Of a stretch of 36,964 bases of DNA, positions 2,691 through 25,643 are shown piece after piece. This stretch comes from Prevotella sp. (GTDB lineage Bacteria > Bacteroidota > Bacteroidia > Bacteroidales > Bacteroidaceae): NCBI GenBank assembly GCA_017417465.1, contig JAFPZD010000127.1, forward strand, positions 1 to 36,964, given 5' to 3'. Position 1 is the stretch's first letter. The number at the start of each line of letters is the position of its first letter. The notes beneath the pieces are model-generated. The model was given only the letters and a program-made list of their open reading frames with translations. It did no database searches and was not told the origin of the DNA. A program made the position numbers and the translations under genes.

Positions 2691-2730
2691 TATTTGGCGG
2701 TGTTGAGATAGACGGCGTGCTACCAATGGG

Positions 2731-2880
2731 GTTGTTGCGGATGGGCGCTTGCGCCCAGGATGTTGTCCTTGTTTTTTTCGCTGGTTAATAAGTTGTTCAG
2801 GTTGTGTGGGTTGTCTTAAAAAATAAAAAGGCACACTGGCCCTAAGGGGCCATCGGGCTGGCACAGGGCCTGCCCCTACA
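2731..2880 (+). repeat. Composite dispersed repeat, copy A
   Basis: The element has a left module (2731-2766) around the hairpin GGGCGCTTGCGCCC, about 68 bases of T/G-rich linker, and a right module (2834-2880) with CACTGGCCCTAAGGGGCC and GGGCCTGCCCCTACA. The same two modules, in the same relative order and with a linker of about 60 bases of different sequence, occur inverted at 35391-35532. Conserved ends with an unconserved middle suggest a structured or mobile unit rather than chance. No ORF with a recognisable family is present. Confidence 0.8.
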
Positions 2881-2957
2881 CTGGCGGCATCGCCTGGCAC
2901 CTGACACTGGACCGTGTAAAACCGTGTAGAACCGTGGCAGAATGGCCTGGCACCTGA

Positions 2958-3005
2958 CACTGGCCCTAAGGGGCCATCGGGCTGGCACAAAGGCCTGCCC
3001 CTACA
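2958..3005 (+). repeat. Composite dispersed repeat, right module only (copy B)
   Basis: A second copy of the right module lies 124 bases after the one in copy A, differing mainly at CACAAAGG versus CACAGGG. Both are followed by TACAYTGGCGG. The intervening DNA also contains a direct repeat, CCTGGCACCTGACACTGG, and a small ACCGTGTARA tandem. This looks like a local tandem duplication of the right half of the element. Confidence 0.75.
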
Positions 3006-3179
3006 TTGGCGGAGTTGCTTTGCGCGGAGAGTGACTCAGTGTCGCTGTGGTGAATTGAAGTTAGGAGGGAAAGGGGGGGAGAATGGGTGCTTTTCAGTGT
3101 GAATCGCGTTAGTAAACAGAAAAAACGAACAGAAGTGAGGGTACAATGGGGTTTCTGCGGAAAAGAATTGGGGAAAAAG

Positions 3180-9330: not shown

Positions 9331-9376
9331 TTTTTCTTAATGCTTAATTGTTGTTTACCTTCTTTTTAATCGTTAG

Positions 9377-9467
9377 ATCAGCTTCTGAGTAGTCCCCGAT
9401 TAGGAGTCTCAGAAGTTTAGATACTAAACACGTCCAGTCTCTATTCTGCAATTGTCCAGGAGCTGAT
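9377..9467 (-). promoter_or_regulatory. Structured spacer upstream of rpsB (candidate S2 leader)
   Basis: On the minus strand the rpsI-rpsB spacer carries three nested inverted repeats: ATCAGCT/AGCTGAT (9461-9467 with 9377-9383), the perfect GTTTAG-TAT-CTAAAC hairpin (9415-9429), and CTTCTGAG/CTCAGAAG (9382-9415). The outer pair shares bases with the third, so alternative folds are possible. A leader by which S2 controls rpsB-tsf is a natural reading, since S2 represses its own operon in other bacteria. This is inference from base pairing only. Confidence 0.45.
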
Positions 9468-9516
9468 TGACATATATAATAATGTACAACCGCACCTTGT
9501 CCAATCGTCCAATAGA

Positions 9517-9903
9517 TTAACGCTTACTGAACTGGAAGCGGCGGCGTGCCTTGGGCTGTCCAGGCTTCTTACGCTCAACCTCACGGCTGTCGCGGGTCAG
9601 GAATCCCTGGGCCTTCAATGCCTTCTTGTCCTCTTCGTTAATCTTCACCAGAGCACGGGCGATGGCCATACGCAGAGCCTGGCTCTGACCGGTGAAACCA
9701 CCACCGTCAAGGTTCACCTTGATATCGTACTTCTCGGCGCAGCCAAGCAGGTTCAGGGGCTGTTTCACCACATACTGCAGGATGGCTGAGGGGAAATATT
9801 CGGTTAAGTCCTTCTTGTTGATCGTGATCTTGCCAGTACCTTCCGACAGATAAACGCGAGCCACTGAGCTCTTGCGACGACCTAATGCGTTAATTACTTC
9901 CAT
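9517..9903 (-). CDS. rpsI: 30S ribosomal protein S9
   Basis: A 128-residue S9 with the canonical start EVINALGRRKSSVARVYLSE. The middle blocks include GGGFTGQSQALRMAIARAL. The invariant basic C-terminus KARRRFQFSKR reaches the P-site tRNA in the ribosome. It follows rplM by 22 bases, the universal L13-S9 pairing. Confidence 0.97.
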   Translation of the reverse strand: MEVINALGRRKSSVARVYLSEGTGKITINKKDLTEYFPSAILQYVVKQPLNLLGCAEKYDIKVNLDGGGFTGQSQALRMAIARALVKINEEDKKALKAQGFLTRDSREVERKKPGQPKARRRFQFSKR

Positions 9904-9925
9904 AATACTCTTTCTTCGTTAATCC

Positions 9926-10387
9926 TTATTTGTACTGGTTAATATCGATAGCCTTAGGCTTCTGAGCCTCGTGCTTGTGCTCTGTACCGTCGTAAATGTA
10001 CAGGTTGTTAAGCAGTGAACGGCCGAGGGGGCCTTTGGGGAGCATGCCCTTAACGGCATGACGAAGGATGCGCTCGGCACCGAAGGGCTTCTTGCGGAGC
10101 TCGGCGGGGGTGTTGAAACGCTGTCCACCGGGATAGCCCGTGTAACGGGTGTAAACCTTGTCGGTCTCTTTGTTGCCAGTGAAACGCACCTTGGCAGCAT
10201 TGATGATAATCACGTTGTCACCGCAGTCAACATGCGGGGTGAAGGAGGGCTTGTACTTGCCACGAATCAGTTTGGCGACCTTTGAAGCCAGGCGACCCAC
10301 TACCTGATCGGTAGCGTCGATGACCACCCACTCCTTCTTGGCTGTCTCCTTATTAACGGAAACGGTCTTGTAACTTAAAGTGTTCAT
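9926..10387 (-). CDS. rplM: 50S ribosomal protein L13
   Basis: A 153-residue L13. Diagnostic blocks are WVVIDATDQVVGRLASKVA, the early-assembly core GDNVIIINAAKVRFTGNK, YTRYTGYPGG and the HAVKGMLPKGPLGRSLLNNL segment. First gene of rplM-rpsI-rpsB-tsf, preceded by a leader of about 150 bases with a -7 box at its far end. Confidence 0.97.
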   Translation of the reverse strand: MNTLSYKTVSVNKETAKKEWVVIDATDQVVGRLASKVAKLIRGKYKPSFTPHVDCGDNVIIINAAKVRFTGNKETDKVYTRYTGYPGGQRFNTPAELRKKPFGAERILRHAVKGMLPKGPLGRSLLNNLYIYDGTEHKHEAQKPKAIDINQYK

Positions 10388-10536
10388 TTCTCTTTTTAAT
10401 GACTAAAAAACAGTTTTACTTTTAAAGTTTGCTTCGTGTGAGCGCCGATTCACAAACCACGCCGCCCGGCCAAAGACGGACGCTATTTACACGACGTCAC
10501 AGGGGGTTCTAAGACACTCCCCAAATAATCGGACTG
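10388..10536 (-). promoter_or_regulatory. Long structured leader of the rplM operon
   Basis: The ~150-base 5' leader contains a hairpin with arms GTTTG and CAAAC (10428-10458), extended inside by TGTGA/TCACA. It also has a GGGG/CCCC stem near the 5' end and GC-rich segments (GGCCGGGCGGCG). The A/T-rich stretch before the ATG is unstructured. L13 leaders have been proposed in Bacteroidia, and this position fits such an autoregulatory element; I cannot confirm that it matches the published model. Confidence 0.55.
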
Positions 10537-10544
10537 CAAAGGTA
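10537..10544 (-). promoter_or_regulatory. -7 box (TACCTTTG) of the rplM operon
   Basis: TACCTTTG on the minus strand fits TAnnTTTG and would start transcription about 145 bases before the rplM ATG. No TTTG occurs at the expected -33 spacing. Confidence 0.6.
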
Positions 10545-10658
10545 CACCTTTTTATTGAATTAGGGTCCACTTGACTATCAGCGAACCCTAACTTTTACAA
10601 AAGTTTAACAGTTTTAAGCAGAAATAAGACACATTTGCAAGAAAAGGAAGCGTATTCC

Positions 10659-10764
10659 GAGAGGTCTGACACTTTGCTCCGAGAAGTCTGCAAGACATCT
10701 CCTAGAAGTCTCCCACCTTTCTCCTAGAAGTCTCCCACCTTTCTCCTAGAAGTCCCAAGGAGAC
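10659..10764 (+). repeat. 22-bp tandem repeat array after obgE
   Basis: Five consecutive units of 22 bp, the last truncated: starts at 10659, 10681, 10703, 10725 and 10747. Units 3 and 4 are identical, beginning TAGAAGTCTCCCACC and ending TTTCTCC. The array ends 5 bases from the obgE stop. The same repeat, differing at one base, occurs at 27008-27051. It is not CRISPR-like: there are no spacers. Confidence 0.85.
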
Positions 10765-10769
10765 ATGCC

Positions 10770-11939
10770 TCACGCCTCCTCGTCCTCTTCGTATTCGAAG
10801 TCATCCAGGTCGTCGATGTCATCAACATCGATATACTCGATGTCATCATCGGCACCCTCGTCGGCCATCTCCTCTGCGAAGCGCGTCATATCCTTGTCGC
10901 GGTGGACAAGCGTGTCCTCGGCCATGACAGCCTGCAGTTTATTGCTCTCAGCGTTCAGCTCGGCCCAGAGCAGGTCCTTCAGCGTGTCGAGGCCCATGCT
11001 CGTGACGGCAGAGATGAAGACGACGGGCAGGTCATCGGGCAGGGTGGGGCGCAGCATGTCGATGAGCTCCTCGTCGAGCAGGTCGCACTTCGTGACGGCC
11101 AGCACGCGGTGCTTCTGTAGCAGTTCAGGGTTGAAGCGTTCCAGCTCACCCAGCAGGATGTCGTACTCATGGCGGATATCGTCGGTATCGCCAGGAACCA
11201 TGAACAGCAGCAGTGAGTTACGCTCGATGTGGCGCAGGAAGCGCAAGCCCAGACCACGCCCTTCGGCTGCTCCTTCGATGATGCCAGGGATGTCGGCCAT
11301 GACGAACGACCGCTGGTCGCGGTAGCCAACGATACCCAGTGAGGGCTCCATCGTGGTGAATGGGTAGTTGGCAATCTTCGGGCGGGCATTGCTGAGGGCA
11401 CTGACGAGTGTCGACTTGCCCGCATTGGGGAACCCCACCAGGCCCACGTCGGCCAGCAGCTTCAGCTCGAGGATGATGGTCAGCTCCTGCATGGGCTCGC
11501 CAGGCTGGGCGTAGCGCGGAGCCTGGTTGGTGGCCGAGCGGAACTGGAAGTTGCCCAGACCGCCTCGACCGCCCTTCAGCAGCACAATCTCCTGACCATC
11601 GTAAGTGACGTCGCAGATGTACTTGCCCGTCTCGGCATTGTAGACAACGGTGCCGCAGGGCACGTCGATGTAGACGTCGCGCCCGTCGGTGCCGTGACAC
11701 TTGTCCTTGCCCCCGTTGCCGCCGTGCTCGGCAAAGATGTGGCGCTCGTACTTCAGGTGCAGCAGCGTCCAGTAGTTGTGGTTGCCGCGCAGAATGACGT
11801 TGCCGCCGCGTCCGCCGTCGCCCCCGTCGGAGCCGCCGTTAGGGTTGTACTTCACGTGCTTCAGGTGCATCGATCCTCTGCCGCCCTTTCCCGAGCGGCA
11901 GAGAATCTTTACGTAGTCTACAAAATTCGATTCTGGCAT
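10770..11939 (-). CDS. obgE: GTPase Obg/CgtA
   Basis: A 389-residue Obg GTPase, which acts in late 50S ribosome assembly and stress responses. The glycine-rich Obg fold occupies about residues 1-158 ([29 protein letters not shown] and [14 protein letters not shown]). The G domain follows: [14 protein letters not shown] (G1), [10 protein letters not shown] (G2), DIPGIIEGA (G3) and TKCDLL (G4). The C-terminus is a highly acidic tail ([20 protein letters not shown]) in place of an ordered OCT domain. The gene lies 32 bases downstream of the giant secreted protein gene on the same strand. Its usual upstream neighbours, adk and hpt, are displaced by ~10.8 kb. Confidence 0.96.
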
Positions 11940-11971
11940 GATTCTTCTTTACTAAATGGTTTGAGCACCGG

Positions 11972-14900
11972 TTATTGGTGCGGTTTGATCACAATCTTCT
12001 GTCCGTTATAGAGATAGACGCCGGCAGACGTAGGTCGCTTGGTGCCATAACGGATGCCCTGCAGCGTGTACCACACGCCATCGTCCATGGTCCAACGGAT
12101 GTCGTTGATGCCCGACGGGTCGTTGATGTCGATGACGAAGGGTTCCCATGGTGTGCCGATACTGCCGTCGCTGACATAGGTCAGCGTGGTGCAGACAGTG
12201 CGGATGCTACCCTCGATGCTGGCACGTATCTCCATGGGCTGTCCGCTGCCCTCACCGGCAACGAGCAGGTAGTAGAGACCGTCGTCGGCAAAGGCGGTGC
12301 CGCGGCACTCACCGTCGATGAAGGCAGCCACCTCGGCGCCGGTGATGGGTGTGCCGTCGTCGGTGAGCTGAATCACGATAGCCATATTGTCAGGATAGCT
12401 GGCAGGGTCGAACGACGGGAACACCGATGTGGCGTTGCTCCTACTGGCAGAGGCCTCGGAGCGGAGGCTGCGCGCTGTGGCCACGGTTCTGACGGGATAG
12501 ACAAACTGCTTCGTGACGCTGTCGAGGCTGTGGTAGAGGTAGCCCCGTCCGCTCTCCAAGACTTCGAGGTTGCCCTCCCAGCCGTAGGGACCGTAGTAGG
12601 CAAATGCCGTCTGCGACTTCACCTGGTCGCCCTTCTTCGGGTTGGCTCCGGCCAGGGCCATGTCGACGGGCATGGTGGTCAGGGGCAGATAGGGCAGCCA
12701 GTTCCAGTCCTTGGTGATGGTGACGCGCGTCTCGGCAAGCGGCACCTGCTCACCGTTGACGTTGAGCGACTTCGGCAGTTCGCTGCTGTTTTCCAGGCGT
12801 GACAGCTGCAGCTTGTACATGGTGTTGGCATGCACCTCCTTGAGGTTGCCGGCCCAGTAGTTGCCACGGCTGTAGGCCACGCCCGTACTCTTGTCCTTAA
12901 GTTGTGCACTCCATGACACCACGTCCCTGAACACGACAGACACGCTGGGGTTGGCCGGCTCGATGCCCATGGAGAGCCAGTTCCAGCCGGAGCGGATGCT
13001 GAGCGGTTGCTCCACGGAGTTGTTCTTGGTGAAGATGAGCGGGTGGTCGAAGTCGCCAAAGCTTACTGCCGGGTCGAAGGTGATGGCATCGGTCTGGGTG
13101 TTGTCTGTCAGGGTGATGTTGACGTTGGTGTAGGTCATGCCTGTCGTAGCATCCCAGATGCGGAAGGTGACGGGCTTACCCTTGTCGAGGTCGGTGGGCA
13201 CGCCGTTGACGCTCTTCTGTGCCGTGCCGTAGACACTCATGGCCACGTAGGCGGCGCCACGCATCTGTCGGGGTGAGGCAATGCCGCGGCACTCATCGCC
13301 GATGAACGCTGCCAGGAGGCTCTCGCTGTTGCCCATGAGGATGCCGTTGACGTAGATCTGTCCAACGACGCTCATGGTGTTCTCATAGGCATTGGGGTCG
13401 ACGCTCCACGCGGGCTGCTCGCCCTGCACCTTCATCACGATGCGCAGGGGCTCGAGTATCTCGTTGTTGCCCTGCAGACCGATGGTGACGTCGTAGTTGC
13501 CCACAGCCACCAAGGGGTTGACGCGGAAGCGCAGCGTCTTCGTCTTCAGCGGGTCGACGTCGTCGGTGCGCTCGCTGCCAATGAGTGTGAGCCACTGCGG
13601 CATATTATATAAGGTGTAGTACTCGGTGTTGCCGCCGCGGTTCTCAATGTTCACGTCGAAGGTGTAGTCGTCGCCGTATTGCTTGACGATGTTCACCGAG
13701 TCCTTCATCCACTTCAGCGTGTTCAGCTGCACGTAGGTCGTCCAGCGTATGGGTTTCGACTCGTTGCCGTGCATGTCGTGAATCTTGTCCACAGTGACAT
13801 TCAGCGTGCATCCCTCAATGTCGCGTGCCTTGATGCCGCTGCCCTCCTCTAAGCGGATGACAATCTTGCGCTCCGAAGCCACGGGCTTGGCAATGATGCG
13901 GCTCTCCACCGGGGCGTTCTTCAACGGCGGTGCTGAGCCAATAAGCATTGTCAGGCCCAGCGGGGTGATGGCGGCAGTGACACCGCCGGTCGCAGCGGCG
14001 GGAGCCATGTTCTCGAGCGTCGACACCTTAGTGCTCACGCCGTTCTCCGTGCCAGCTTTCTCGAAAGGATAGTAGGCCACCAGACCGCGTGAATAGACAT
14101 CGGTGGTGTCGATGCAGTTATACTGGTTAGCCAACAGGCGGCTCTCCGAGAGCGAGGCGTGCCAGATGCGCACCTCGTCGATGGTGGATAAGTAGGCCAT
14201 GCCCTTGCCCAGAATGAGGCGTGAGCCCTCCAATGACGGCACGTCGCGCTCGGCGATGACTGCCGTCCGCTGTCCGTTGAAATAGAAGCTGGCAGCCTGA
14301 CCGCGCACCACGTTCAGGGCCACGTGGTTCCATGTCTGTTTGTTGGCGAAGTCGGCGTTGCTAGCCACCACCTGTTCCATGCCTCCGTAGCGCAGCATCC
14401 AGTCCTGCTGCTGGTTGATGTAGAGGCGCAGGCGGTTGCTGTCGTTGCTGCCTGTCTCGAAGACGGTCTGTTCGCCACTGGCTTTAGTGCCTGCCGGGTG
14501 TACCCACAACTCAATGGCATAGCTGTCGCCCTGGCCCGTATTGATGCGGCTGATGTCAGCCTCCACGCCCTCCTCGTCGTCCAGCCGGAGGGCATAGTTC
14601 TTGTTGTCCAGCAGCCAGGAGTCGTTGACCACGAAGTCGTGGGTGTGGCGTGTGTCGGTGGCCATGTGGCCGTGGCCTTCCTTCATGGGCCAGTAGTTGG
14701 CCAGGCCGTAGACATAGTTGTCCTTCGTCTGGTTCTTAGTGGCGGCAGCCTCAGTGACGTTGCGGTAGATGTTGTACAGTGCCAGGTCGTGTATGGCACC
14801 GTGCATATTGCCAAGATAGAGGTAGTTGTCGTCGCTGTAGTGTACCTGCTGCACCACCACGTCGTCCACCGTCTGGTCGGTGAAGAGTTGGAGCGTGGTG

Positions 14901-17900
14901 CCGCCATACTCTGCCAGGGCGCTGAACTTCTTCTCTGACGACTTGTAGCTCAGCACGATGTACGTCCACTCGCTCTTTGGCACCACGTCACGGCTGGTCT
15001 GCTGGGCCTGTCCCATCGTGACTATGATGTGTCCCGAGTCATCGACACTCAGGGCGAACTGGCCAGAGCCGAGCCGCAGGATGCTGCCCGAATCTTCCCA
15101 TTTCATCCAGAAGTCCACAGAGAAGTCGCCATTGAGGAAAATGGGGTTCAGTGTCATCTGCTCCTCACCGTAGGGCAGCAGCAGCTTGGCAACGTCGTGT
15201 GCCACGGGCTGGTCGTTGAGCTTGGCAGTGACAATGATGTTCTTGTCGCTGACGTAGCCGGGGACGATGTCCTCGTTGAACTCCACCACCAGGTCGTCGC
15301 CATAGCGCAGGATGCCGTTGGCCGGAGCCGGCGTGGTGAGGTTGCGGGGGCGCACGTTGTCCTTGACTACAGTCAGCTCCTTACTGTACACGCGTATGGG
15401 ATCGGTGCCATACATCGTCTCAGTGTAGGCGCGGAAGGTGTAGGTGCCCTGCGGGTAGTTGTTGTCGTCGCTCATGTTGAAGTTCAGACGCAGGTCGCCG
15501 CTGGCGGGCAGCACGCGGTCGCCGGCATTGGCCGAGTCGCTGCGGTTGACGAGGAAGGTGAGCTCCGAGGGCTGCGCCCAGGTGGTAGAGCCCTCGTAGC
15601 GGTACTCCACGCCCACTCTGGTCATGCCCCGGAACTGCCGGTCGAAGTTGGTGACCTTCATCTCCAGGTTGCCCTCGTTGCGGGCCAGCGTCTCAATATT
15701 GAGCACGGGGTCGCTGATGAGCAGGTCGACGGGCGACGACGAGGGCTTGAAGCTGATGTCTAACGACACCTCGTCGTAAATCTTCAGCGGCTGGTACTGC
15801 GACTGGAAGCGAATCTTCACGCCCTTGTAGTCCAGACGGCTCTGGTCGGTCTGGCGCACGGTGATAATCTTCTTCACCGTCTCGCCGGCGGGCACCCACA
15901 CCGAGCGTCCGCTCACGGGCACGCCGTCCATAAGTATCTCCAGTCCCAGCGAGTCAGTATGCTCCTGTACGGACAGGTTGTAGGTCATGTCCATGGGCTG
16001 GTGGGTGTGGTTGTTGTTCGACAGGTGCAGGGTGAACTGCCCCGTCTGCCCTGCGGGCACATCGGTCAGCACGGCGCTCTTCGCCCCCACGGCACCGTCG
16101 GTGCTGACGGCTATGGCGGGCTGCTCCATCTGCTCGGTGCCGTAGGAGATGACGTGCTTCTTCTCTGGCTCGTAATACTCGGCATACTCCAGTCCCTCGT
16201 AGGGGTTGTAGCTCTGTCCGCCGCGCAGCAGGAAGATGTCGCCCCACCCTCGCGGCGAGCGGTAGATGTCAACCGTGAAGTCGGTGCCGGTGTTGCCGTC
16301 GATGAGGTCGTAGGCGAACTCGGCGTATGACTTTGTATTGTCTAAAGAGTCTCCCACGAGGCGGCTTCCGGTGTATCCCAGTTCCTCCTTAAAATTGACG
16401 TTCGTACCGAAGGTGGCTCCAGAGTTGACGGAGAACGATGTCTTGAAGTCACTCGAGAAACCTGCTTTTGCCGTCTCTTGGTATGTTGACGTCAACGTGG
16501 TGTCGCGGCGTTCTGAATAGGTATAGCTGACACTTCCGTCGAATGAGCGGTTCTCCTTGTAATACTTCCGGTCATTGAAGGCTTCAATCTTGTCCAGTTC
16601 GTTTTCCCTGAGCCTTTCACGCCACAGCCTCATCGACTCATTGTAGTGCAGCACCATGTCCTGCGACTGTCCGTTGATGCCCCTTTTCCATTCGTATGTA
16701 CCTTCCTTTCCGTAGTTGGGGTCGCCGGGCTGCAGCCAGGTCAGGTATACGTCCTGGTCTGTCGTGTTCACATAGCTCTTGGCCTGAACGCTGTCCATGT
16801 ATTCCAACAGCATGTTTCGCGTTTCCTCCAGCTTGGGCAGCATGGTCTGCTTGATTTCGAGGGCAGAGTACATGAAGTCGGTACTGATGCTGTCGTTGAT
16901 GCTCACCGCGTCCTTCAGTGCCAGCACGATGCCGTTGGCCTCGCGGTGGAAACCCAGCTTTCGGCATGTTCCGATGATGAAGTTGTGCGACTTGCCTATG
17001 AACACGTCGCCGTTGGCTCCCACATACTTCGACCCCGTGCCGGTGCTGATGTTATCGGCTTCGGTATAGACGTAAGTCTTGTCATCTTTCCAAAGCCATG
17101 AAAACGAGCTTTTTATGCCGACCGTCCATAATGTCTCGGCCTTGCTGCTGGAGACGATGGCCACGCCCAGACCGACTACTGTTTTCAGATTGGCACCCCA
17201 GACCAAGTCCATTGCCTCCGTCTGATCCCAGTAGATGCCATCCACTTTGGATTCTATGGTAGTGTAGCTGCGTCCTGTCTTCCATGTCGTCTTGCCCTTT
17301 GCGCCTGGCGGGTCGCGCAGCACCATGTCCACGTGGTCGGGGCCAGCAGTGACGAAGTTGTTGCCATTGGTCAGCTCGCCCAGCACCACGCCGTTGAGCA
17401 TTGGCCCGGTATAGGTGCGCTTGTTGCGCTCAAAGACGATGCTGAACTGGCGCGTATAGGGTGCCGTGATGTTGGGTGTTCCCGTGGTGAAGGTTATCTC
17501 GTTCCTGCCTACGCTGTCCAGGCGCACCTGGTTCCATTTCAGGTTGTAGATATCGCCCTCCTTCAGGTCAGTGACCGAGGGGTCGATGACGCGCGCCACG
17601 ACGTCCTGCTCGTCGCTCATCTCGTTGGCCACCGTCAGCACCTGGCCGTTCATGGGTATGGTGTCGGCCACGGCCTGGCCCGAATCGTAGTTGGTGTAGA
17701 CCTCAAAGCCATGCACCGCGAAGGTGTATTCCTTATGTCGTGCAAAGACGGGGAATCCGTAGGTGTAGCTGACGTCGCCGTTGGCCTGTCGCACCCAGAT
17801 GTCGCTGATGTCGGTCTTTTCGGTGCTGCTCACGGCATAGTCCTTCATCTCCTTCTCGCCGTAGGCACCGTCGCCCTTCACCTGCTGCATGGTCACTTGC

Positions 17901-20900
17901 GGCTCGGCGAAGTAGCTCTTCACCAGCTTGGTGTTGTAAGTATAGTAGTTCCACACGCTGTCGCCGAACTCTTTGGCCTGCTTCAGCGAGTCGCGCAGCT
18001 CCTTTTTCACGTTGGTGAGGTCTATCTCGGGCAACGTGTTGAAATCCACGTTGGGGTTACTGTCTATGCGTATGCTCCTAGTGACGTACTTCAGCGGCGG
18101 CAGCAGTGCCGAGAACTCACCGGTGCGGGGGTCGGTCTTGATGTTGATGTACTTGGCATCGCTTCCAATGCCCGTCCAGGCGGTACTGCGTATGCTGGTG
18201 GTATCGCTGTCCCATGTGCGCTGCGACGTGGCATCGCTGATGAAGTCGTCCTTGCAGTTGAACGAGAACGACTCGTTGTTCAGCCTCAGCTGTATGGTAG
18301 CAGTGCCGATGTTGTTTCTCGACTCGCCGAAGCCCACGGCCAGTGAGTCGTTGCGCACGCCTCCGCCGATGCGCCCCACGAAGTTGACGAGGGTGGAGTC
18401 GGTGAAATTGTACTGCACGGCACGCTCGAAGTTATAGGTGCCCTGCGTGGGGAAGCGTCCGCCGCTGACCATGGTGTGGCCGTCGAGCCTGGCCTCTACA
18501 TAGTGCTCGCCGATGGGCACGGAGATGCTGTAGAAGCCGTCGCTGTCGGTGGTATTCAGCTTTCCGTTGGCGGTGACCAGGTCGCCGTCGACGTAGAACT
18601 GTATGCCCTCGGCGGGGATGTTGGTGCCGGCATAGTAGATGTGTCCGCTCATGGGGAACGACGACACGTCCTCGAAGTCGATGTTGTTGGCCGTCAGGCT
18701 GGTGGGGCTGACGAACATCGAGCGGGTGTTGGGGTTGAACTCGTGTATGCCCAGTGCGGGGGTCAGCTTGTAGTTGGTGCCGCCCTGCTGGAAGGGTATA
18801 CCTTTAATAATATAGTCGCCCTCGGTGTCGGTCAGACCGTAGAGTGCCAGGAGCCTGCCGTTGGGCACGGTGGCCGACGGGCGGGCATTGACACCCACGT
18901 CGGGATGATTCAGCTGGTAGATGCCGTCCTGACGGGCCACGTCGAAGGCATAGTCCTTGATGCCGATGCCCTCGTCGAGGGGCCAGTAGAGTATGAGTCC
19001 GCTCTCCGTTCCGCCGAGGATGCGTGTGTAGGTAGCGTTGAGTTCCTCCTCGGTGAGGGCCCGCTTCCACAGTCGCACATCGTCGACGAAGCCGGTGAAG
19101 GTGCTGCCGCCGGTGCGGTTCGAACCGCCGATGCTGAGCGTGACCTGTGGCTCGGGCAGCGAATAGGCTGCTGCCTGGCAGACGTTCCACTCTGTGCCGG
19201 CAGCGGTCATGGTGGCTGAACGCAGCGTGTCGTTGCCCACATAGAAGGTCCACGTTCCGCCCTTGTAGACGGCTGCCACATGGCTGAAGTCATAGTGGTC
19301 GAGCACCAGGCTGGGGAATTCCTTCACAGCGGTGCCGCCCTGCGAGCAGTCGATGGCATAGAGGTATGAGGTGTCGCCGGTGGTCTTCACGCCCAGCTCC
19401 AGAGCATTGGCCAGATGGAGGAGCATGCTGCTGCCGTCGGCGGCCTTGCCGGTGTGCTGCTTCTTGGCCCAGAGCTGCAGCGTCAGCTCTTTCTGCCCGT
19501 TCAGGTCGTTTTGATAGCGGTCGGCGTCGGCAGTCCACTGCAGACCCTTGCCCTCGCCCTCTATGTAGCGCGAGAGGAACTGTGGCTGGTCGGTGCTCTC
19601 GTCGGCGCTCGACTTCACCAGGTTCACACGCACGCCGGCAACGGGGGTTCCCGAGCCGAAGGAGATGTGCCCGGTGATGGTGCCGCGAGCCTGCGAGAAG
19701 CCCGGGGCTATCACCGCGTCGGTCTTCACCAGCTGCTCTTCGCACTTCGCGCCGTAGGCCTCCACGGTGTATTCATAGTAGGAGCCGGCCATCACGCGGT
19801 CATCGGTGTAGGTGTACTCCGATGCCGTGCCATGAATCTCGTCGGTGAGCACGGTCCACTCGTCGGTACCTATGGCACGGCGCAGCACGCGGTATTTGAT
19901 GTCGTTATTGGCATCGGCACTCTCCACCTTCCACTTCACGATGACGGTCTTCTCTTCTGTTCCCGTCGAAGCCTTCACCTCGCTGATGTAGCTGCCTGCA
20001 GGCAGGTTGCAGGTGACGACATTCGAGTAGAAGTCGCGCTCCATGTAGGTGGTCTTCACGCGGTAGTCAACGAGGTCGCACACCGAGCCGTCGGTGTCGA
20101 AGGTGGCTTTCGAGAGCGTGGGGTCTACGTTAAGGCTGTTGTCCAGCGTGCGCCAGGCATTCTGGCCCTGGGGGCTGAACTCTATGGTCCAGTTCTGGCC
20201 CGTAGGCTCTATGCAGTATTCCCACACCAGGCGCACGGCCGTGGTGAATGTTCGGTCCTGCGCCAGCTTGATGGGCATCTCGAGCATGGTGTTCACGCTC
20301 CGCTCCCGCCACAGGTCGTACTTCGAATCGGGCTGCGCGGGCAGGGTGACGAGGCTGTTCTTGAATGTATTGCTGATGACCGAGGGCAGGAATACCACAC
20401 GGTAGATGTATGTCTTGTCGTACTCTATGTCATCGTCGGTCATCTGCAGCTGGTCGGCATTGCCGTTCAGGGTGCCCACCACCACATAGTCAGCGGGCGA
20501 CTGCCCCTGCTCGTAGCGAATGACATACCAGGTACCGTCGGTGCGGCAGTCTACCGTCACATTCTGACGGCCGTCCCAGCCCGTCTCGCTGCTGTTCCTC
20601 GTCCATTGTATGGTGTTGCTCCTGTTCCACTTGTTGAAGTCGACCTTCATTTCCGTGGGGCGGATGAAAGGCTTGAGGATGCCCTTGACGCTGGGCTGCT
20701 CTATCCACGTTACCTCTCCGTCGCTCTTTTCGTCATTGTAGTTCACGCCTCCATGGTACTCTATGAACACGGGTATGGTGTAGCTCACGTTCTGCAATCC
20801 GCCGGGCGAGCTGAACTCCAGGTCCATCTTGTTGTTCGACCGTGTGGTAACAGTCATCGGTTTTCTGCCCATGAGGCTGGTGGTGCCGAAGTTTTCGTAC

Positions 20901-21643
20901 ACCCTTTCCGTGTTCCCGTGCCCTGTCCAGATGGTGTACACGCCGTAGTACTGAGCGGCGCAGAGCGGGTTGCTGCGCTTGTCGGGCGCATTGACGGCCT
21001 TGAAGCCCACCTTGCCCTGGTCGTTCCATTCGTACTGCAGCCGTGGCATGGGGTTGTCCTCGGTCACTGACGAGAGGTCGAGCTTCTTTTCATACTCAAA
21101 CCATCCGAAGGCATATTTGTTGTTGTAAACGTAGCGGCACCTGAACACGATGCTTTTGGCACCTGCGGTGAATACGTCGCTGGTAGGCAAATATTGCACG
21201 ACGGCATAGGTGCGTATGGGACTGAGGAAATAGGCCGGTCCGTAGATGAACCTGTTCTCCACCGAACTATTTATATTCCCTGCATAGTCCATGGTCGCTT
21301 TGCCTATCAGCAGGCGTGAGCCGTTTTCCGGAGCTATATAGGCTTCCACTTCGGCGGCGACGGGAACAGAAGAGTTAGGCGGCGCTGGGAATACGCAGAA
21401 GCTGAACTCGTAGAAGATCTGGTCAGAATTGATGTCGAAGCTCTTAGATGTCGTAAACGTATGGAGATCCTTGGCATAGAAGTTATTCGCTGAGCTTATC
21501 ATCTCGCTGCGGAAGTCGTAGGAGCCTCCGCCACTGTCGTCGGCTGTAGTCTGGTATTGCCAGTCAGCCAGTGCAGTAGTGCTGCCGGCCAGCAGTGCCA
21601 CCAGCACCACGGCCATCATACGTAGGAAGTGTTTAGTCTTCAT
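11972..21643 (-). CDS. Giant (3223 aa) secreted multidomain LamG protein
   Basis: The longest gene here. A signal peptide (MKTKHFLRMMAVVLVALLAG, cleavage after TTALA) shows export. Visible regions are: beta-rich and fibronectin-III-like sections (~440-640); LamG/concanavalin-like domain 1 (~700-890, VDDVRLWKRALTEEELNATY); a carboxypeptidase-regulatory/Cna-B-like stretch (~930-1065); a middle section (~1500-1830) with a helical part near 1590-1620 and Ser/Thr-alternating beta strands; LamG 2 (~2154-2300) and LamG 3 (~2344-2505, IDEVRIWHASLSESRL). The C-terminal part holds two AFIxxECRG modules (~2780 and ~3104) and two WNWL segments (~2890 and ~2985). The end, GVYLYNGQKIVIKPHQ, resembles the tail of many Prevotella surface proteins. 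I see no catalytic motif. It starts 13 bases after the fimbrillin-like gene and ends 32 bases before obgE. Adhesion or matrix scaffolding is likely; the exact role is unknown. Confidence 0.9.
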   Translation of the reverse strand: MKTKHFLRMMAVVLVALLAGSTTALADWQYQTTADDSGGGSYDFRSEMISSANNFYAKDLHTFTTSKSFDINSDQIFYEFSFCVFPAPPNSSVPVAAEVEAYIAPENGSRLLIGKATMDYAGNINSSVENRFIYGPAYFLSPIRTYAVVQYLPTSDVFTAGAKSIVFRCRYVYNNKYAFGWFEYEKKLDLSSVTEDNPMPRLQYEWNDQGKVGFKAVNAPDKRSNPLCAAQYYGVYTIWTGHGNTERVYENFGTTSLMGRKPMTVTTRSNNKMDLEFSSPGGLQNVSYTIPVFIEYHGGVNYNDEKSDGEVTWIEQPSVKGILKPFIRPTEMKVDFNKWNRSNTIQWTRNSSETGWDGRQNVTVDCRTDGTWYVIRYEQGQSPADYVVVGTLNGNADQLQMTDDDIEYDKTYIYRVVFLPSVISNTFKNSLVTLPAQPDSKYDLWRERSVNTMLEMPIKLAQDRTFTTAVRLVWEYCIEPTGQNWTIEFSPQGQNAWRTLDNSLNVDPTLSKATFDTDGSVCDLVDYRVKTTYMERDFYSNVVTCNLPAGSYISEVKASTGTEEKTVIVKWKVESADANNDIKYRVLRRAIGTDEWTVLTDEIHGTASEYTYTDDRVMAGSYYEYTVEAYGAKCEEQLVKTDAVIAPGFSQARGTITGHISFGSGTPVAGVRVNLVKSSADESTDQPQFLSRYIEGEGKGLQWTADADRYQNDLNGQKELTLQLWAKKQHTGKAADGSSMLLHLANALELGVKTTGDTSYLYAIDCSQGGTAVKEFPSLVLDHYDFSHVAAVYKGGTWTFYVGNDTLRSATMTAAGTEWNVCQAAAYSLPEPQVTLSIGGSNRTGGSTFTGFVDDVRLWKRALTEEELNATYTRILGGTESGLILYWPLDEGIGIKDYAFDVARQDGIYQLNHPDVGVNARPSATVPNGRLLALYGLTDTEGDYIIKGIPFQQGGTNYKLTPALGIHEFNPNTRSMFVSPTSLTANNIDFEDVSSFPMSGHIYYAGTNIPAEGIQFYVDGDLVTANGKLNTTDSDGFYSISVPIGEHYVEARLDGHTMVSGGRFPTQGTYNFERAVQYNFTDSTLVNFVGRIGGGVRNDSLAVGFGESRNNIGTATIQLRLNNESFSFNCKDDFISDATSQRTWDSDTTSIRSTAWTGIGSDAKYINIKTDPRTGEFSALLPPLKYVTRSIRIDSNPNVDFNTLPEIDLTNVKKELRDSLKQAKEFGDSVWNYYTYNTKLVKSYFAEPQVTMQQVKGDGAYGEKEMKDYAVSSTEKTDISDIWVRQANGDVSYTYGFPVFARHKEYTFAVHGFEVYTNYDSGQAVADTIPMNGQVLTVANEMSDEQDVVARVIDPSVTDLKEGDIYNLKWNQVRLDSVGRNEITFTTGTPNITAPYTRQFSIVFERNKRTYTGPMLNGVVLGELTNGNNFVTAGPDHVDMVLRDPPGAKGKTTWKTGRSYTTIESKVDGIYWDQTEAMDLVWGANLKTVVGLGVAIVSSSKAETLWTVGIKSSFSWLWKDDKTYVYTEADNISTGTGSKYVGANGDVFIGKSHNFIIGTCRKLGFHREANGIVLALKDAVSINDSISTDFMYSALEIKQTMLPKLEETRNMLLEYMDSVQAKSYVNTTDQDVYLTWLQPGDPNYGKEGTYEWKRGINGQSQDMVLHYNESMRLWRERLRENELDKIEAFNDRKYYKENRSFDGSVSYTYSERRDTTLTSTYQETAKAGFSSDFKTSFSVNSGATFGTNVNFKEELGYTGSRLVGDSLDNTKSYAEFAYDLIDGNTGTDFTVDIYRSPRGWGDIFLLRGGQSYNPYEGLEYAEYYEPEKKHVISYGTEQMEQPAIAVSTDGAVGAKSAVLTDVPAGQTGQFTLHLSNNNHTHQPMDMTYNLSVQEHTDSLGLEILMDGVPVSGRSVWVPAGETVKKIITVRQTDQSRLDYKGVKIRFQSQYQPLKIYDEVSLDISFKPSSSPVDLLISDPVLNIETLARNEGNLEMKVTNFDRQFRGMTRVGVEYRYEGSTTWAQPSELTFLVNRSDSANAGDRVLPASGDLRLNFNMSDDNNYPQGTYTFRAYTETMYGTDPIRVYSKELTVVKDNVRPRNLTTPAPANGILRYGDDLVVEFNEDIVPGYVSDKNIIVTAKLNDQPVAHDVAKLLLPYGEEQMTLNPIFLNGDFSVDFWMKWEDSGSILRLGSGQFALSVDDSGHIIVTMGQAQQTSRDVVPKSEWTYIVLSYKSSEKKFSALAEYGGTTLQLFTDQTVDDVVVQQVHYSDDNYLYLGNMHGAIHDLALYNIYRNVTEAAATKNQTKDNYVYGLANYWPMKEGHGHMATDTRHTHDFVVNDSWLLDNKNYALRLDDEEGVEADISRINTGQGDSYAIELWVHPAGTKASGEQTVFETGSNDSNRLRLYINQQQDWMLRYGGMEQVVASNADFANKQTWNHVALNVVRGQAASFYFNGQRTAVIAERDVPSLEGSRLILGKGMAYLSTIDEVRIWHASLSESRLLANQYNCIDTTDVYSRGLVAYYPFEKAGTENGVSTKVSTLENMAPAAATGGVTAAITPLGLTMLIGSAPPLKNAPVESRIIAKPVASERKIVIRLEEGSGIKARDIEGCTLNVTVDKIHDMHGNESKPIRWTTYVQLNTLKWMKDSVNIVKQYGDDYTFDVNIENRGGNTEYYTLYNMPQWLTLIGSERTDDVDPLKTKTLRFRVNPLVAVGNYDVTIGLQGNNEILEPLRIVMKVQGEQPAWSVDPNAYENTMSVVGQIYVNGILMGNSESLLAAFIGDECRGIASPRQMRGAAYVAMSVYGTAQKSVNGVPTDLDKGKPVTFRIWDATTGMTYTNVNITLTDNTQTDAITFDPAVSFGDFDHPLIFTKNNSVEQPLSIRSGWNWLSMGIEPANPSVSVVFRDVVSWSAQLKDKSTGVAYSRGNYWAGNLKEVHANTMYKLQLSRLENSSELPKSLNVNGEQVPLAETRVTITKDWNWLPYLPLTTMPVDMALAGANPKKGDQVKSQTAFAYYGPYGWEGNLEVLESGRGYLYHSLDSVTKQFVYPVRTVATARSLRSEASASRSNATSVFPSFDPASYPDNMAIVIQLTDDGTPITGAEVAAFIDGECRGTAFADDGLYYLLVAGEGSGQPMEIRASIEGSIRTVCTTLTYVSDGSIGTPWEPFVIDINDPSGINDIRWTMDDGVWYTLQGIRYGTKRPTSAGVYLYNGQKIVIKPHQ

Positions 21644-21656
21644 ATTGATAGGACTT

Positions 21657-22574
21657 TTAGTTTTGTTTATTCAGCTTCAGTGCTACGGGGTAGTACTTGC
21701 CGGCCTGCAGCGTGGCACGGGCCGTGCCGGTGTAGGTGCCTTCGCTGCCGGTTACAGAGAAGGAGAACGGTTCGCCAGTGCAGGGGAACAGGGCCACATA
21801 GACACCATCGGAGGTTTCAACATCGAGAGTGATGGTGAGCGGTTCCCAGCCATTATCGCCTTGGGGTTCCCAAGTGAGTTCAAGTTCGTCAGACTTCTCT
21901 TTAGGTTCAACGGTCGCTGTCTGCGGATAGCCCACTACGCCGCCCGTATAATCATCTTTGTAGTTGATAGTGAGCGTTGTCACTGGAATAGCCTTATCTG
22001 TAGCCTTGTCCTTGAACGTGAACTTTGCCACGGCCAGCAGGGGCTTCATCGTGGAGATGTATGCCGTGGCCGTAGTTTCCGTCACACTGGTCACCTGAGC
22101 CACGCCATAGATATAATGATAGCGGTCGGCCACATCGCTGAGCGTTCCCTTTTGTTCTTTCAGGCTGACGGTGAAGGCTGCGTTGCCAGTTGCCAACGAC
22201 ACTTCGGGGTAGATGAGCGCCAACTTGTCCTGAGGACCGCACGTGATGCTGCCCGTAAACGTTGTTGTGACGGCATCCGACGCAGCGGTGAAATTGCCAT
22301 AGAGGATCTCAGACTGAACTGCACTCACGTTCAGCAGCGTCGCCTCGTCGCCGGCATTCCAGCTGGCCCCCAACGTATTGGTATTGTCGGAGAGCGTGGC
22401 CCTGGTGAGGGGCACGTCGCTAATCGTCAGTCGTCGCACCTTCCTGCCGTCGGTGCGCTGTTCGGTGCCCTCCTGTCCGTCGTCGGAGGAGCATGCGGTC
22501 TGTACTGCGCCAAATGTCAGGAGGCAGATGATAAAAGCCAGGCTTTCGGCCGTGCATAAAAAATACTTCTTCAT
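21657..22574 (-). CDS. Fimbrillin-like (Mfa-type) lipoprotein
   Basis: Taken from the ATG at 22574 (305 residues), because the protein then opens MKKYFLCTAESLAFIICLLT and reaches a lipobox at VQTAC (C28), as an exported lipoprotein should; an ATG at 22586 adds four residues. The mature part starts with a Ser/Asp/Gly linker. It then shows LTRATLSDNTNTLGASWNAGD, the kind of opening seen in fimbrillin-like (Mfa_like_1) proteins, where a short 'W-x-x-GD' strand follows an Arg-Ala site. The rest is beta-strand-rich and ends AGKYYPVALKLNK, typical of the family. Such proteins form or anchor fimbriae or act as surface lipoproteins. Its stop lies 13 bases upstream of the giant gene, so a functional pairing is likely. 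Confidence 0.75.
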   Translation of the reverse strand: MKKYFLCTAESLAFIICLLTFGAVQTACSSDDGQEGTEQRTDGRKVRRLTISDVPLTRATLSDNTNTLGASWNAGDEATLLNVSAVQSEILYGNFTAASDAVTTTFTGSITCGPQDKLALIYPEVSLATGNAAFTVSLKEQKGTLSDVADRYHYIYGVAQVTSVTETTATAYISTMKPLLAVAKFTFKDKATDKAIPVTTLTINYKDDYTGGVVGYPQTATVEPKEKSDELELTWEPQGDNGWEPLTITLDVETSDGVYVALFPCTGEPFSFSVTGSEGTYTGTARATLQAGKYYPVALKLNKQN

Positions 22575-22588
22575 AACTGGATGCATTG

Positions 22589-22732
22589 TCAGTCTTGTGA
22601 GAAACCGCCGTCTGTGTCTTCTTCGTAGCCCGACATGGTGGCTGTCACTCCGCCGGGGCTGCCCTCAAGCATGTCGTGCCCGCCTTCCATCTGGATAGCT
22701 TGCGTTGTGGGGGGCGTGTACTTCGTCTTCAT
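22589..22732 (-). CDS. 47-aa peptide, MKxxYxxPTT type
   Basis: A small ORF that starts with MKTKYTPPTTQAIQMEGG and ends with an acidic/Gly tail, EEDTDGGFSQD. AAGGA lies 4 bases before the ATG, an unusually good ribosome-binding site for this phylum, and the stop is 14 bases before the fimbrillin-like start. It closely parallels the 54-aa peptide at 36131 in its opening (MKxxYxxPTT, then E at position 16) and in its small/Pro-containing centre (GSPGG versus ASDPKP). Short peptides of this style are frequent in Prevotella genomes as I recall them, and their role is unknown. There is no signal peptide or transmembrane segment. A possible function as precursor, cofactor or regulator of the downstream surface proteins is inference. 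Confidence 0.65.
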   Translation of the reverse strand: MKTKYTPPTTQAIQMEGGHDMLEGSPGGVTATMSGYEEDTDGGFSQD

Positions 22733-22782
22733 ATCCTTACTTTTTTTGTAATCTGTCCTTCTCTGTCATGGGGCGCTGAAGA

Positions 22783-23355
22783 TTACAGCGTGTCCACCAC
22801 CTTGCAGATGTCGCTGAAGATGCGGTCCAGGTCGCCCAGACCGTCGATGTGGTGGTGCACGCCCTGCTCGCGGTACCACGCAATGAGGGGCTGCGTCTGC
22901 TGGTGGTACACCACGAGGCGCTTCTTGATGGTCTCCTCGTTGTCGTCAGCACGGCCAGAGAGCTGTCCACGCAGCAGCAGGCGCTTCATCAACTCGTCCT
23001 CAGGGACGTCGAGCTCCAGCATGGCAGCTACCTTGTCGCCACGCTCGGCAAGCATGGCCTTCAGGGCCTCAGCTTGTGGGATGGTGCGGGGGAAGCCGTC
23101 GAAGATGACACCCTTGTGCTCACGTCCGAAGCTGTCGTAGACGCTGGCCAGGATGCTCACCATCAGCTCGTCGGGGATGAGCTGCCCCTGGTCGATGTAG
23201 CGCTTGGCCGTCTGGCCCAGCTCGGTGCCATTCTTAATCTCGGCGCGTAGCACGTCGCCTGTGGAGATGTGCTCCAGTCCATACTTTTCGATGAGCTTGT
23301 CGCTCTGTGTGCCCTTACCAGAACCGGGAGCACCAAAAATCACGATATTCTTCAT
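22783..23355 (-). CDS. adk: Adenylate kinase
   Basis: A 190-residue adenylate kinase, interconverting ATP + AMP and 2 ADP. FGAPGSGKGTQS (7-18) is the P-loop, ISTGDVLRAEIKNGT (30-44) and FDGFPRT (85-91) bind AMP, and LSGRADDNEETIKKRL (132-147) carries the LID arginines. The LID is the short form, without a Cys4 zinc site, which explains the length below the 214 residues of E. coli. It follows hpt by 73 bases. Downstream, where obgE would be expected, comes the small peptide after 50 bases. Confidence 0.96.
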   Translation of the reverse strand: MKNIVIFGAPGSGKGTQSDKLIEKYGLEHISTGDVLRAEIKNGTELGQTAKRYIDQGQLIPDELMVSILASVYDSFGREHKGVIFDGFPRTIPQAEALKAMLAERGDKVAAMLELDVPEDELMKRLLLRGQLSGRADDNEETIKKRLVVYHQQTQPLIAWYREQGVHHHIDGLGDLDRIFSDICKVVDTL

Positions 23356-23384
23356 AATCAGTTGTTTGTTATTTAGTTTTTTCG

Positions 23385-23426
23385 TTTTTTCGTTATCTCG
23401 TTACACCGTTAACGTTATAACGACGT
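23385..23426 (-). repeat. CGTTATAACG-type words between hpt and adk
   Basis: The spacer contains TTTTTTCGTTTTTTCGTTAT and then CCGTTAACGTTATAACGACG, made of the same words as the cluster at 7244-7304 but in the opposite sense. It lies inside the hpt-adk transcript. Confidence 0.55.
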
Positions 23427-23428
23427 CA

Positions 23429-23968
23429 TCACCCCTCCACAATTGAATAGATGTCGCGCAGGCCACGGCCTTGCTGGTTGTAGTCCAGACCGTAACCCAC
23501 GATAAAGTCGTTAGGAATCTCCAATGCACAGTACTGAATGTCGAGAGGCACCTGCAACTTCTCGGGTTTTACCAAGAGGGCACAGATGCTAATGCTGGCG
23601 GGCTGCCGCGTGCCCAGTGTCTCCATCATACGCTTCATGGTGCGGCCCGTGTCGACAATGTCCTCGACGATGATGACGTGGCGACCAGTCAGGTCCTCAT
23701 TGATGCCGATAACCTCCTTGATAGTGCCCGTCGACGTGGTGCCCTGATAGGAGGCCAGCTTCACGAACGACAGCTCACAGGGAATGGTGATGGCGCGCAC
23801 CAGATCGGCTGCGAAGATGAATGCACCGTTCAGAACGGCCAACAGCAGTGGGTTCTTGCCCGCAAAGTCATGATTGATACGGTCAGCGACAGCTTTCACA
23901 CGCTTCAGGATGTCAGCTTCGGCTATTGATGTCTCGAACGTCTTGTCGAGGATGGTCACTCTGCTCAT
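23429..23968 (-). CDS. hpt: Hypoxanthine phosphoribosyltransferase
   Basis: Purine-salvage enzyme joining PRPP to hypoxanthine (or guanine). The PRPP-binding signature VIIVEDIVDTGRTM is complete; LAVLNGAFIFAADLVRAI and the flexible-loop region ELSFVKLASYQGTTSTG are also typical, as is FIVGYGLDYNQQGRGL near the end. I chose the ATG at 23968 (MSRVTILDKTF, 179 residues), which aligns with family N-termini. An in-frame ATG at 24001 would add MKTIISNKTKR and leave a leader of only about 15 bases after the -7 box. First gene of the hpt-adk operon, divergent from nnr. Confidence 0.94.
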   Translation of the reverse strand: MSRVTILDKTFETSIAEADILKRVKAVADRINHDFAGKNPLLLAVLNGAFIFAADLVRAITIPCELSFVKLASYQGTTSTGTIKEVIGINEDLTGRHVIIVEDIVDTGRTMKRMMETLGTRQPASISICALLVKPEKLQVPLDIQYCALEIPNDFIVGYGLDYNQQGRGLRDIYSIVEG

Positions 23969-24021
23969 ACGCTTCGTTTTGTTAGAGATGATTGTTTTCA
24001 ATGGGTTTCATAACTCGGTTG

Positions 24022-24029
24022 CAAAGGTA
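24022..24029 (-). promoter_or_regulatory. -7 box (TACCTTTG) of hpt-adk
   Basis: TACCTTTG on the minus strand matches TAnnTTTG. It lies just upstream of hpt and probably drives the whole hpt-adk-peptide-lipoprotein-giant-obgE run, since I found no other consensus promoter ahead of the cassette. Confidence 0.6.
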
Positions 24030-24089
24030 CAAAAAAAAATGCAAACAACCATTCCTTTCGTGATTTATTTAAAAAAAGCTGGCAGAAGT

Positions 24090-24120
24090 TTTGTATTTTG
24101 ACGAATTTGCCGTATCTTTG
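24090..24120 (+). promoter_or_regulatory. Consensus promoter of nnr, abutting the start codon
   Basis: TTTG at 24090-24093, 19 bases, then TATCTTTG at 24113-24120: a full match to the Bacteroidota consensus. The nnr ATG is at 24129, only 9 bases beyond the -7 box, so the transcript should have almost no 5' leader. Confidence 0.85.
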
Positions 24121-24128
24121 CATGCTGT

Positions 24129-25643
24129 ATGAAGATTTTCACTGGTGCTCAGATACGTGAGCTTGACAAATACACCATTGAGAACGAACCCATCAAGTCG
24201 ATTGACTTGATGGAGCGGGCAGCACGAGCCATCACGCGGGCTATCACTGAAAGGTGGCCGCAAGAGGTGCCCGTGGTGGTGTTCGCCGGTCCAGGTAACA
24301 ACGGCGGTGACGCTCTGGCAGTGGCACGCCTGCTGACGGAGCAGAACTATCAGGTACAGACCTACTTGTTCAACATCACCGGTAAGCTGTCGGCCGACTG
24401 CACAGAGAACAAGCGACGCCTGACTGACCGCAAGGGGCGACCCCTGCTGACAGAGGTGACGCAGGAGTTCGACCCACCGCGCCTTGAGAGTGGCATGCTT
24501 GTGGTCGACGGCCTTTTCGGCTCAGGTCTAAACAAACCCCTTGCCGGCGGCTTTGCCTCGCTGGTGAAGTATATCAACGCTTCACAGGCTGAAGTGGTAA
24601 GCATCGATGTACCCTCGGGACTGATGACCGAGGACAACACTTACAACATCCGGGCCAACATTGTGCGGGCAACGCTGACACTGACGCTGCAGAACACGAA
24701 GCTGGCGTTCCTCTTTCAGGAGAATCAGCAGTTCGTTGGTGAGCTGAAGACGCTCGACATACGCCTCAGCCAGGAAGGGATGGAGAAAACCGATGCTCAG
24801 TACACCATCCAGGAGGAGCAGGACATCAGGCCACTGCTACGACCACGCGACCCCTTTGCTCATAAAGGCACCATGGGCCACGCACTCCTCGTGGCAGGCA
24901 GCTACGGCATGGCAGGTGCTGCCATCCTGGCCACACGGGCCTGTATGCGGAGCGGAGCGGGCAAAGTGACAGTCCACACACCGAAGCGTAACGTGGTACC
25001 ACTGCAGATAGCTGTCCCAGAGGCAGTGCTCCATACAGACCGTGAAGAGACGGCTTTCAGCGAGCCCATCGCCACTGAGGACTATCAGGCCTTAGGCATC
25101 GGTCCTGGCTTAGGCACCAGTGAGCAGACGGCTATCGCACTCATCGCCCAGCTGCGGCGTGCACAGTGCCCAGTGGTGGCCGACGCTGATGCCCTGAATA
25201 TCCTGTCGACACGGCGGGCATGGCTACAGCAACTTCCAAAAGGCATCATCCTCACACCACACCCCAAGGAGCTCGACCGCCTGGAGGGACAATCGGTCGA
25301 CAGCTACGAACGGCTGACAAAAGCACGTCTGCTGGCAGAGCGGCTACATGGCTACGTCGTACTGAAAGGCCACCATACGGCCATCTGCATGCCCGACGGC
25401 CACATCGTGTTCAACTCAACAGGCAATGCGGGGATGGCAACGGCAGGCAGTGGCGACGTGCTGACGGGCATCATCACTGGACTGCTCACCCGTGGTTATG
25501 GACGGCGCGAGGCATGCATGGTCGGTGTCTACCTGCACGGGCTGGCCGGAGACCTTGCAGCTGAAGCCTTAGGACAAGAGAGCATCACTGCCAGCGACCT
25601 CATCACCTACTTACCCAAAGCCTTTTTGAGAATCGAAAACTGA
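24129..25643 (+). CDS. nnr: Bifunctional NAD(P)HX epimerase/dehydratase
   Basis: A 504-residue fusion that repairs hydrated NADH/NADPH. The N-terminal YjeF_N epimerase (~1-215) shows VVVFAGPGNNGGDALAVARL and VVDGLFGSGLNKPL. The C-terminal ADP-dependent dehydratase of the ribokinase-like fold (~225-504) shows KGTMGHALLVAGSYGMAGAA, IGPGLGTS, LTPHPKELDRL and the catalytic GNAGMATAGSGDVLTGII. Length and domain order are those of E. coli-type Nnr. The start at 24129 is fixed by the family N-terminus MKIFTGAQIRELDKYTIEN, even though it leaves almost no leader after the promoter. Confidence 0.95.
   Translation: MKIFTGAQIRELDKYTIENEPIKSIDLMERAARAITRAITERWPQEVPVVVFAGPGNNGGDALAVARLLTEQNYQVQTYLFNITGKLSADCTENKRRLTDRKGRPLLTEVTQEFDPPRLESGMLVVDGLFGSGLNKPLAGGFASLVKYINASQAEVVSIDVPSGLMTEDNTYNIRANIVRATLTLTLQNTKLAFLFQENQQFVGELKTLDIRLSQEGMEKTDAQYTIQEEQDIRPLLRPRDPFAHKGTMGHALLVAGSYGMAGAAILATRACMRSGAGKVTVHTPKRNVVPLQIAVPEAVLHTDREETAFSEPIATEDYQALGIGPGLGTSEQTAIALIAQLRRAQCPVVADADALNILSTRRAWLQQLPKGIILTPHPKELDRLEGQSVDSYERLTKARLLAERLHGYVVLKGHHTAICMPDGHIVFNSTGNAGMATAGSGDVLTGIITGLLTRGYGRREACMVGVYLHGLAGDLAAEALGQESITASDLITYLPKAFLRIEN

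Follow-up and report, generated by a model that had tools for sequence, protein, structure and literature searches.

Known fimbrillin operons of the Bacteroidales comprise FimA-E and Mfa1-5. The locus described here resembles these operons in that a fimbrillin-like lipoprotein is encoded beside a larger surface protein, but it differs from them in the weak profile match of the window lipoprotein, in its partner, a LamG protein of about 3200 aa, in the conserved peptide of 43-64 aa that comes first, and in the lack of Fim/Mfa accessory genes from the adk-obgE interval of the window. Compared with the hpt-adk-obgE run, the same genes were found in the same order and on the same strand, except that 10.8 kb of surface-type genes lay between adk and obgE. 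In Porphyromonas gingivalis, surface proteins are reported to undergo domain rearrangement and exchange of alleles, giving a mosaic unrelated to strain phylogeny (PMC5266723). The giant gene of the window is a mosaic as well, but the exchange would here be between species and would involve defined blocks within one 9.7-kb gene and dispersed copies. In the literature on Prevotella fimbrillins, surface-gene recombination, leader peptides and adk/obgE, part of it covered at title or abstract level, neither the peptide nor the arrangement was described.

The window, i.e. the whole stretch of 36,964 nucleotides analysed here, is an entire contig of a draft genome (G000; 278 contigs, estimated completeness 90.8%, estimated contamination 5.53%), whose closest named relatives based on adk were Prevotella and Prevotellaceae MAGs, many of rumen and deer origin. 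The original prediction described a surface cassette inside a housekeeping run, and its genes, order, strand and gaps were all reproduced by the gene coordinates and the Pfam/NCBIfam matches. The run lies on the minus strand and consists of hpt (23429..23968; TIGR01203 over cut-off), adk (22783..23355; PF00406, E 7.2e-53), a 47-aa peptide gene (22589..22732), a fimbrillin-like surface lipoprotein gene (21657..22586; weak Mfa_like_1), the gene of a 3223-aa giant LamG protein (11972..21643; a single open frame with three Laminin_G_3 matches) and obgE (10770..11939; TIGR02729 and NF008955 over cut-off), the identities of the three housekeeping genes being firm. Successive gaps measured 73, 50, 14, 13 and 32 bases, with the first ATG of the fimbrillin gene at 22586 and the 14-base gap counted from the second (21657-22574). 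No tRNA was found in the window. In a check for a target-site duplication, the roughly 200-base stretches at the two junctions shared no word longer than 7 bases. Ribosomal genes follow obgE in the window, where an L13-Bacteroidia ribosomal leader (RF03127; 10447-10521) precedes rplM, and a large downstream gene, TonB receptor-like by eye, was seen in genomes G250 and G246. An in-frame stretch of about 44 aa (MRIVKLPH...PGDLLPD.WYKGKE) precedes adk in several relatives (L080:1419-2123, L051, L052, L081, L086), and the window adk (start 23355) is without it.

The original prediction also held that the three housekeeping genes are direct neighbours in Porphyromonas and Bacteroides, and in the genomes compared here they were usually close together. 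Both adk and obgE were among the matches listed for 127 genus genomes (window included), on one contig in 119 and split in 8, and 44 further genus genomes were listed for one of the two genes only. Among the matches listed, the adk-obgE gap was at most 776 bp in 116 of the 119 genomes; the three exceptions were G105 (21 kb), the window (10.8 kb) and G151 (3.2 kb). Of the 22 genomes listed for adk only, 19 were examined further: 17 had obgE within 200 bp, and in 2 it was absent from the examined stretch. Thirteen near-adk genomes included 8 with obgE within the examined stretch (G250 among them), and other genes followed adk, with no obgE in the examined stretch, in G343, G286, G312, G379 and G382. 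Among 80 named relatives, a set overlapping that of the genus genomes, the gap was at most 299 bp in 70 and 1.7 kb in one, and obgE fell outside the examined stretch in 9. At the order level, an adk match was obtained in 87 of the 89 genomes from other genera; of the best 29 of these loci, 26 had hpt upstream of adk and 19 had obgE at most 605 bp downstream. Peptide, fimbrillin and giant matches were absent near adk in these 29 loci, in those of the 8 split genomes, G105 and G151, and within the 0.4-10 kb examined downstream of adk in the 80 named relatives. Overall, the comparison of adk-obgE spacing placed the cassette at this site in the window and in G250 only, among the loci examined. The hpt-adk-obgE neighbourhood is, judging by these distributions, common and old, though interrupted in several relatives. 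Because adk and obgE lie close together in nearly all genus genomes listed with both on one contig and in many order-level loci, the cassette between them is an insertion and the derived state. The interruptions seen elsewhere were of other kinds: a cell-wall/division gene cluster, named by eye, separates adk and obgE by 21 kb in G105 (L032-L033), and unrelated ORFs sit in gaps of 1.3-3.2 kb in G151 (L034; 949 aa, opposite strand), G155 (L045; 306 aa) and G246 (L089; a 341-aa gene).

The window lipoprotein matched PF13149 (Mfa_like_1) with an E-value of 3e-4, its score of 21.3 bits falling short of the cut-off (27 bits), and its fimbrillin assignment, taken alone, is weak. Within its family, 5 of 24 members matched this profile at E 0.01 or better (best 3.9e-6), and Cys32-Ser33 was invariant in all 24, with the consensus CSSDDD constituting a lipoprotein signal; the family profile returned nothing among PDB sequences at E up to 1. 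A search of 398 genus genomes yielded fimbrillin matches in 75 at E 1e-3. At E 1.1e-18 or better, 38 fimbrillin places were counted (pieces of one gene counted once), of which 36 were examined, G176:C134, G316:C42 and weaker places lying outside this set; the window and G250 alone were at adk. A small peptide was encoded upstream of the fimbrillin in 34 of the 36 loci, using a peptide pattern defined after the loci had been inspected (the exceptions were G041, where a contig end cuts the locus, and G343). A giant lay downstream in 32 of the 36: in 23 it came directly next, at most 260 bp away, and 9 others had it within 1.5 kb. No giant followed the fimbrillin in G312, G343 and G097, and the contig of G362 ends 386 bases on. 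The window showed the same layout: the gene of an SGY/GFSQ-family peptide immediately precedes the fimbrillin gene, and the giant follows 13 bp downstream. On this gene-order evidence, the 10.8-kb cassette is one copy of a dispersed Prevotella module composed of a small peptide, a fimbrillin-like lipoprotein and a giant LamG protein. The window's own genome also carries, on contig C242 (L220), a second peptide-fimbrillin-giant start, with a fimbrillin of a different clade.

The second adk-site copy is located on a 66-kb contig of another genome (G250:C19), with hpt, adk, peptide, fimbrillin, giant and, after 216 bp, obgE. Identities between the two copies amounted to about 46-50% for the peptide, 57% for the fimbrillin and 59% for the giant over residues 550-3220, and the module was intact in both (giants of 3223 aa in the window and 3158 aa in G250). 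When 248 relatives of G250, a set sharing many members with the genus genomes above, were searched at E 1e-15, no further fimbrillin place came up, and all matches fell in one of 99 genera. In the fimbrillin tree (33 rows), the window and G250 were sisters (99/96). The three-protein species tree placed G296 beside the window (84) and G139 beside G250 (99), with the clade of four at 87; its support near the window is weak. The cassette was absent from the site in G296, where adk and obgE are 14 bp apart, and in G139 the module was present elsewhere in the genome, with adk and obgE on separate contigs.

Of 200 genus genomes, 76 contained relatives of the giant, counting the genome of the window itself. 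Comparison along its length showed a recombinant mosaic, whose pieces would have been swapped between species. The N-terminal block (residues 1-900; 18944..21643, minus strand) belongs to type A in the window and to type B in G250, and the first 480 residues of the two giants gave no blastp match at E 1e-3; all 29 giants of at least 2600 aa matched one or the other of these two types. The central exchanged block (residues 1241-1840; 16124..17923, minus strand) was nearest to G194/G224, and the C-terminal part (residues 1951-3223; 11972..15793, minus strand; tree on 1951-2850) was nearest to the same-site gene of G250. In windows of 150 residues, the nearest giant was G194 or G224 in all five from 1201 to 1950, and G250 was nearest or tied in 7 of the 8 from 1951 to 3150 (G085 was ahead in one), the G250 giant being itself nearest to the window giant in all 8 of its own windows. 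Trees of 22 giants rejected the window and G250 pair for residues 451-950 (AU 5.5e-77) and 1201-1900 (AU 7.9e-11) and recovered it for 1951-2850 (SH-aLRT 97.6); these were quick trees, and the pair submitted to the AU test and the segments were picked after the identity scan. Conflict between N-terminal type and C-terminal group was also seen in G151, G085 and G072. The simplest reading is that homologous recombination replaced whole blocks, by way of the conserved sequence at about 950-1240 and after about 1850. A giant fragment in the window's own genome (G000:C198; L093) has a different central block, with identities over residues 1251-1750 of 61-63% to G250 and 37-43% to the window giant. 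This own-genome paralogue was ruled out as the central-block donor, as the fragment contains the other block.

Concerning export, SprA_N (PF14349), which marks a translocon gene of the T9SS, gave two matches over cut-off in the window's own genome and none in 14 control genomes. No curated C-terminal sorting domain of T9SS cargo was detected by Pfam or NCBIfam in the tail of the giant; by eye only, the tail resembled other tails in these genomes. Because of SprA, the LamG domains and the lipoprotein signal, we infer that the giant is exported and, together with the fimbrillin-like lipoprotein, serves as an adhesin or appendage.

Bacteroidetes promoters carry a -7 box with the consensus TAnnTTTG. 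On the minus strand between 10545 and 24100, this motif was found only at the box before hpt (TACCTTTG; 24022..24029, minus strand), from which hpt and all the genes behind it are presumed to be transcribed, with none between it and the box that serves the following unit (L13 leader and rplM; 10537..10544, minus strand, from the consensus scan). Shuffled sequences contained about 9 such motifs per window on both strands, which corresponds to a chance expectation of about 1.6 for a single strand over 13.5 kb, so that this absence alone is weak evidence. Within 9000-24300, neither terminator-like sites (11 against 13.3 expected) nor sigma-70-like sites (6 against 5.0 expected) exceeded chance. 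The prediction that no terminator or consensus promoter lies inside the cassette thus agrees with an empty consensus scan and with terminator-like sites at chance level. Elsewhere, TAnnTTTG was present within 200 nt of the peptide start in 18 of 32 modules, some of them near-identical copies (200 shuffles: mean 4.5, maximum 9), and was lacking within this distance in 14. Both adk-site copies were without a -7 box within 400 nt of the peptide, a stretch that is mostly adk coding. In G250, the 216-bp gap between the giant and obgE starts with a strong hairpin (-37.4 kcal/mol, z -5.65) and a U-rich tail, and TACCTTTG lies between this terminator-like hairpin and obgE. The 32-bp gap of the window has neither a hairpin (z -0.31) nor a -7 box, and the 3' end of the giant has no consensus -7 box. 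G250 therefore seems to have split obgE off, which the window species appears not to have done, barring a non-consensus promoter. As neither element precedes obgE in the window, its transcription may hinge on read-through from upstream. The placement of the cassette under the hpt promoter and the dependence of obgE on read-through, both proposed in the original prediction, fit the sequence of the window, but the hairpin and box of G250 speak against their being general.

The explanation towards which we lean, by a modest degree of confidence, is that the module was inserted once into the hpt-adk-obgE run, is driven by the hpt promoter, and had the interior of its giant replaced by recombination with dispersed copies. 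The module would have entered the run in an ancestor common to the window species and G250, and its expression from the hpt promoter would be tied to growth. The giant would then be exported and act with the lipoprotein at the cell surface as proposed above, while homologous recombination with other module copies would replace its first 900 residues and 600 in its centre, the ends staying with the site. Transcription of obgE would proceed by read-through in the window, whereas in G250 the gene has a terminator-like hairpin and a -7 box to itself. A broader proposal is speculative and probably goes too far: the adk-obgE junction would be a growth-coupled expression site for a giant adhesin that swaps its N-terminal and central blocks with dispersed module copies, so that surface identity could change while expression and obgE stay linked to ribosome assembly and the salvage of purines.

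A single insertion requires a later loss or a locus transfer, because G296 and G139 are without the cassette at the site. These two nearest relatives are also what would be expected from two independent insertions of similar modules at one junction, in the window lineage and in that of G250, as are the differing N-terminal types of the two giants and a window peptide nearer to that of G139 (64%) than to that of G250. Nevertheless, the sister relationship of the fimbrillins and of the C-terminal segments of the giants would be unexpected from two random events, and we regard this course as improbable. An arrangement that is ancestral and was lost in relatives is barely credible; nothing in this analysis spoke for it, and it was rejected on adk-obgE spacing (116/119 genus genomes listed and 19/29 best order-level loci with close genes, the latter 29 without cassette genes near adk) and on the narrow distribution of the fimbrillin (one of 99 genera), the cassette being at adk in only two genomes among the loci examined.

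The module may also be a neutral passenger that landed at the junction, without any useful coupling, with obgE transcribed from a non-consensus promoter of its own; this is a possibility to be taken seriously, albeit on the unlikely side. The same junction tolerates unrelated genes (G151, G155 and G246) and the G250 sequence indicates separate obgE control, but the module has stayed intact in both carriers and the consensus box is absent from the 3' end of the giant and the 32-bp gap. Multicopy giants, and a window that is the whole contig of a 278-contig draft with about 5.5% estimated contamination, are conditions in which a chimeric assembly of a metagenome bin could arise. However, the giant forms one intact frame ending 32 bp before obgE, and the identical gene order at the same site in G250, a separate genome, speaks strongly against an artefact, so that a chimera was rejected as very improbable.

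The locus shows how a conserved housekeeping run of a Prevotella-type genome has taken in a surface module, and two related species differ in apparent obgE transcription, through read-through in one and a hairpin plus promoter in the other. The mosaic giant and the dispersed module with its conserved peptide go beyond the original prediction, which was made without sequences of relatives. Cross-species block exchange in giant surface proteins may help to diversify the surfaces of abundant gut bacteria; newly defined as well is the recurrent three-gene module with its unannotated small peptide.

This peptide, the first gene of the module, belongs to a family with the pattern MKxxYxKP...LL..S...SGY...GFSQD, with homologues upstream of related fimbrillin genes. 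In an alignment of 25 rows, Y5, P8 and Y36 were invariant and L21, L22, S34, G35 and G43 nearly so. The window peptide had no Pfam or NCBIfam match; among the 25 family members, 3 touched DUF1455 (best E 0.0061) and single members touched two other Pfam families, with two single weak NCBIfam matches (E 0.11 and 0.9), so that the family has no clear known counterpart. The peptide profile gave 3 to 28 matches at E 1 or better in each of 9 genomes, mostly over the first 20-30 positions, including 18 at E<=1 in the window's own genome. In 15 of the 18 non-module loci examined, such a peptide started within 60 bp of the end of a same-strand upstream gene. RiPP mining in the Bacteroidales is reportedly the subject of one paper (PMC10352776). 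Widespread peptides of 45-80 aa (L250-L279) combine a constant start, MKxxYxKPxxxVVxLxxxxxLLxxS, with a variable end, a layout that resembles a leader plus a variable part.
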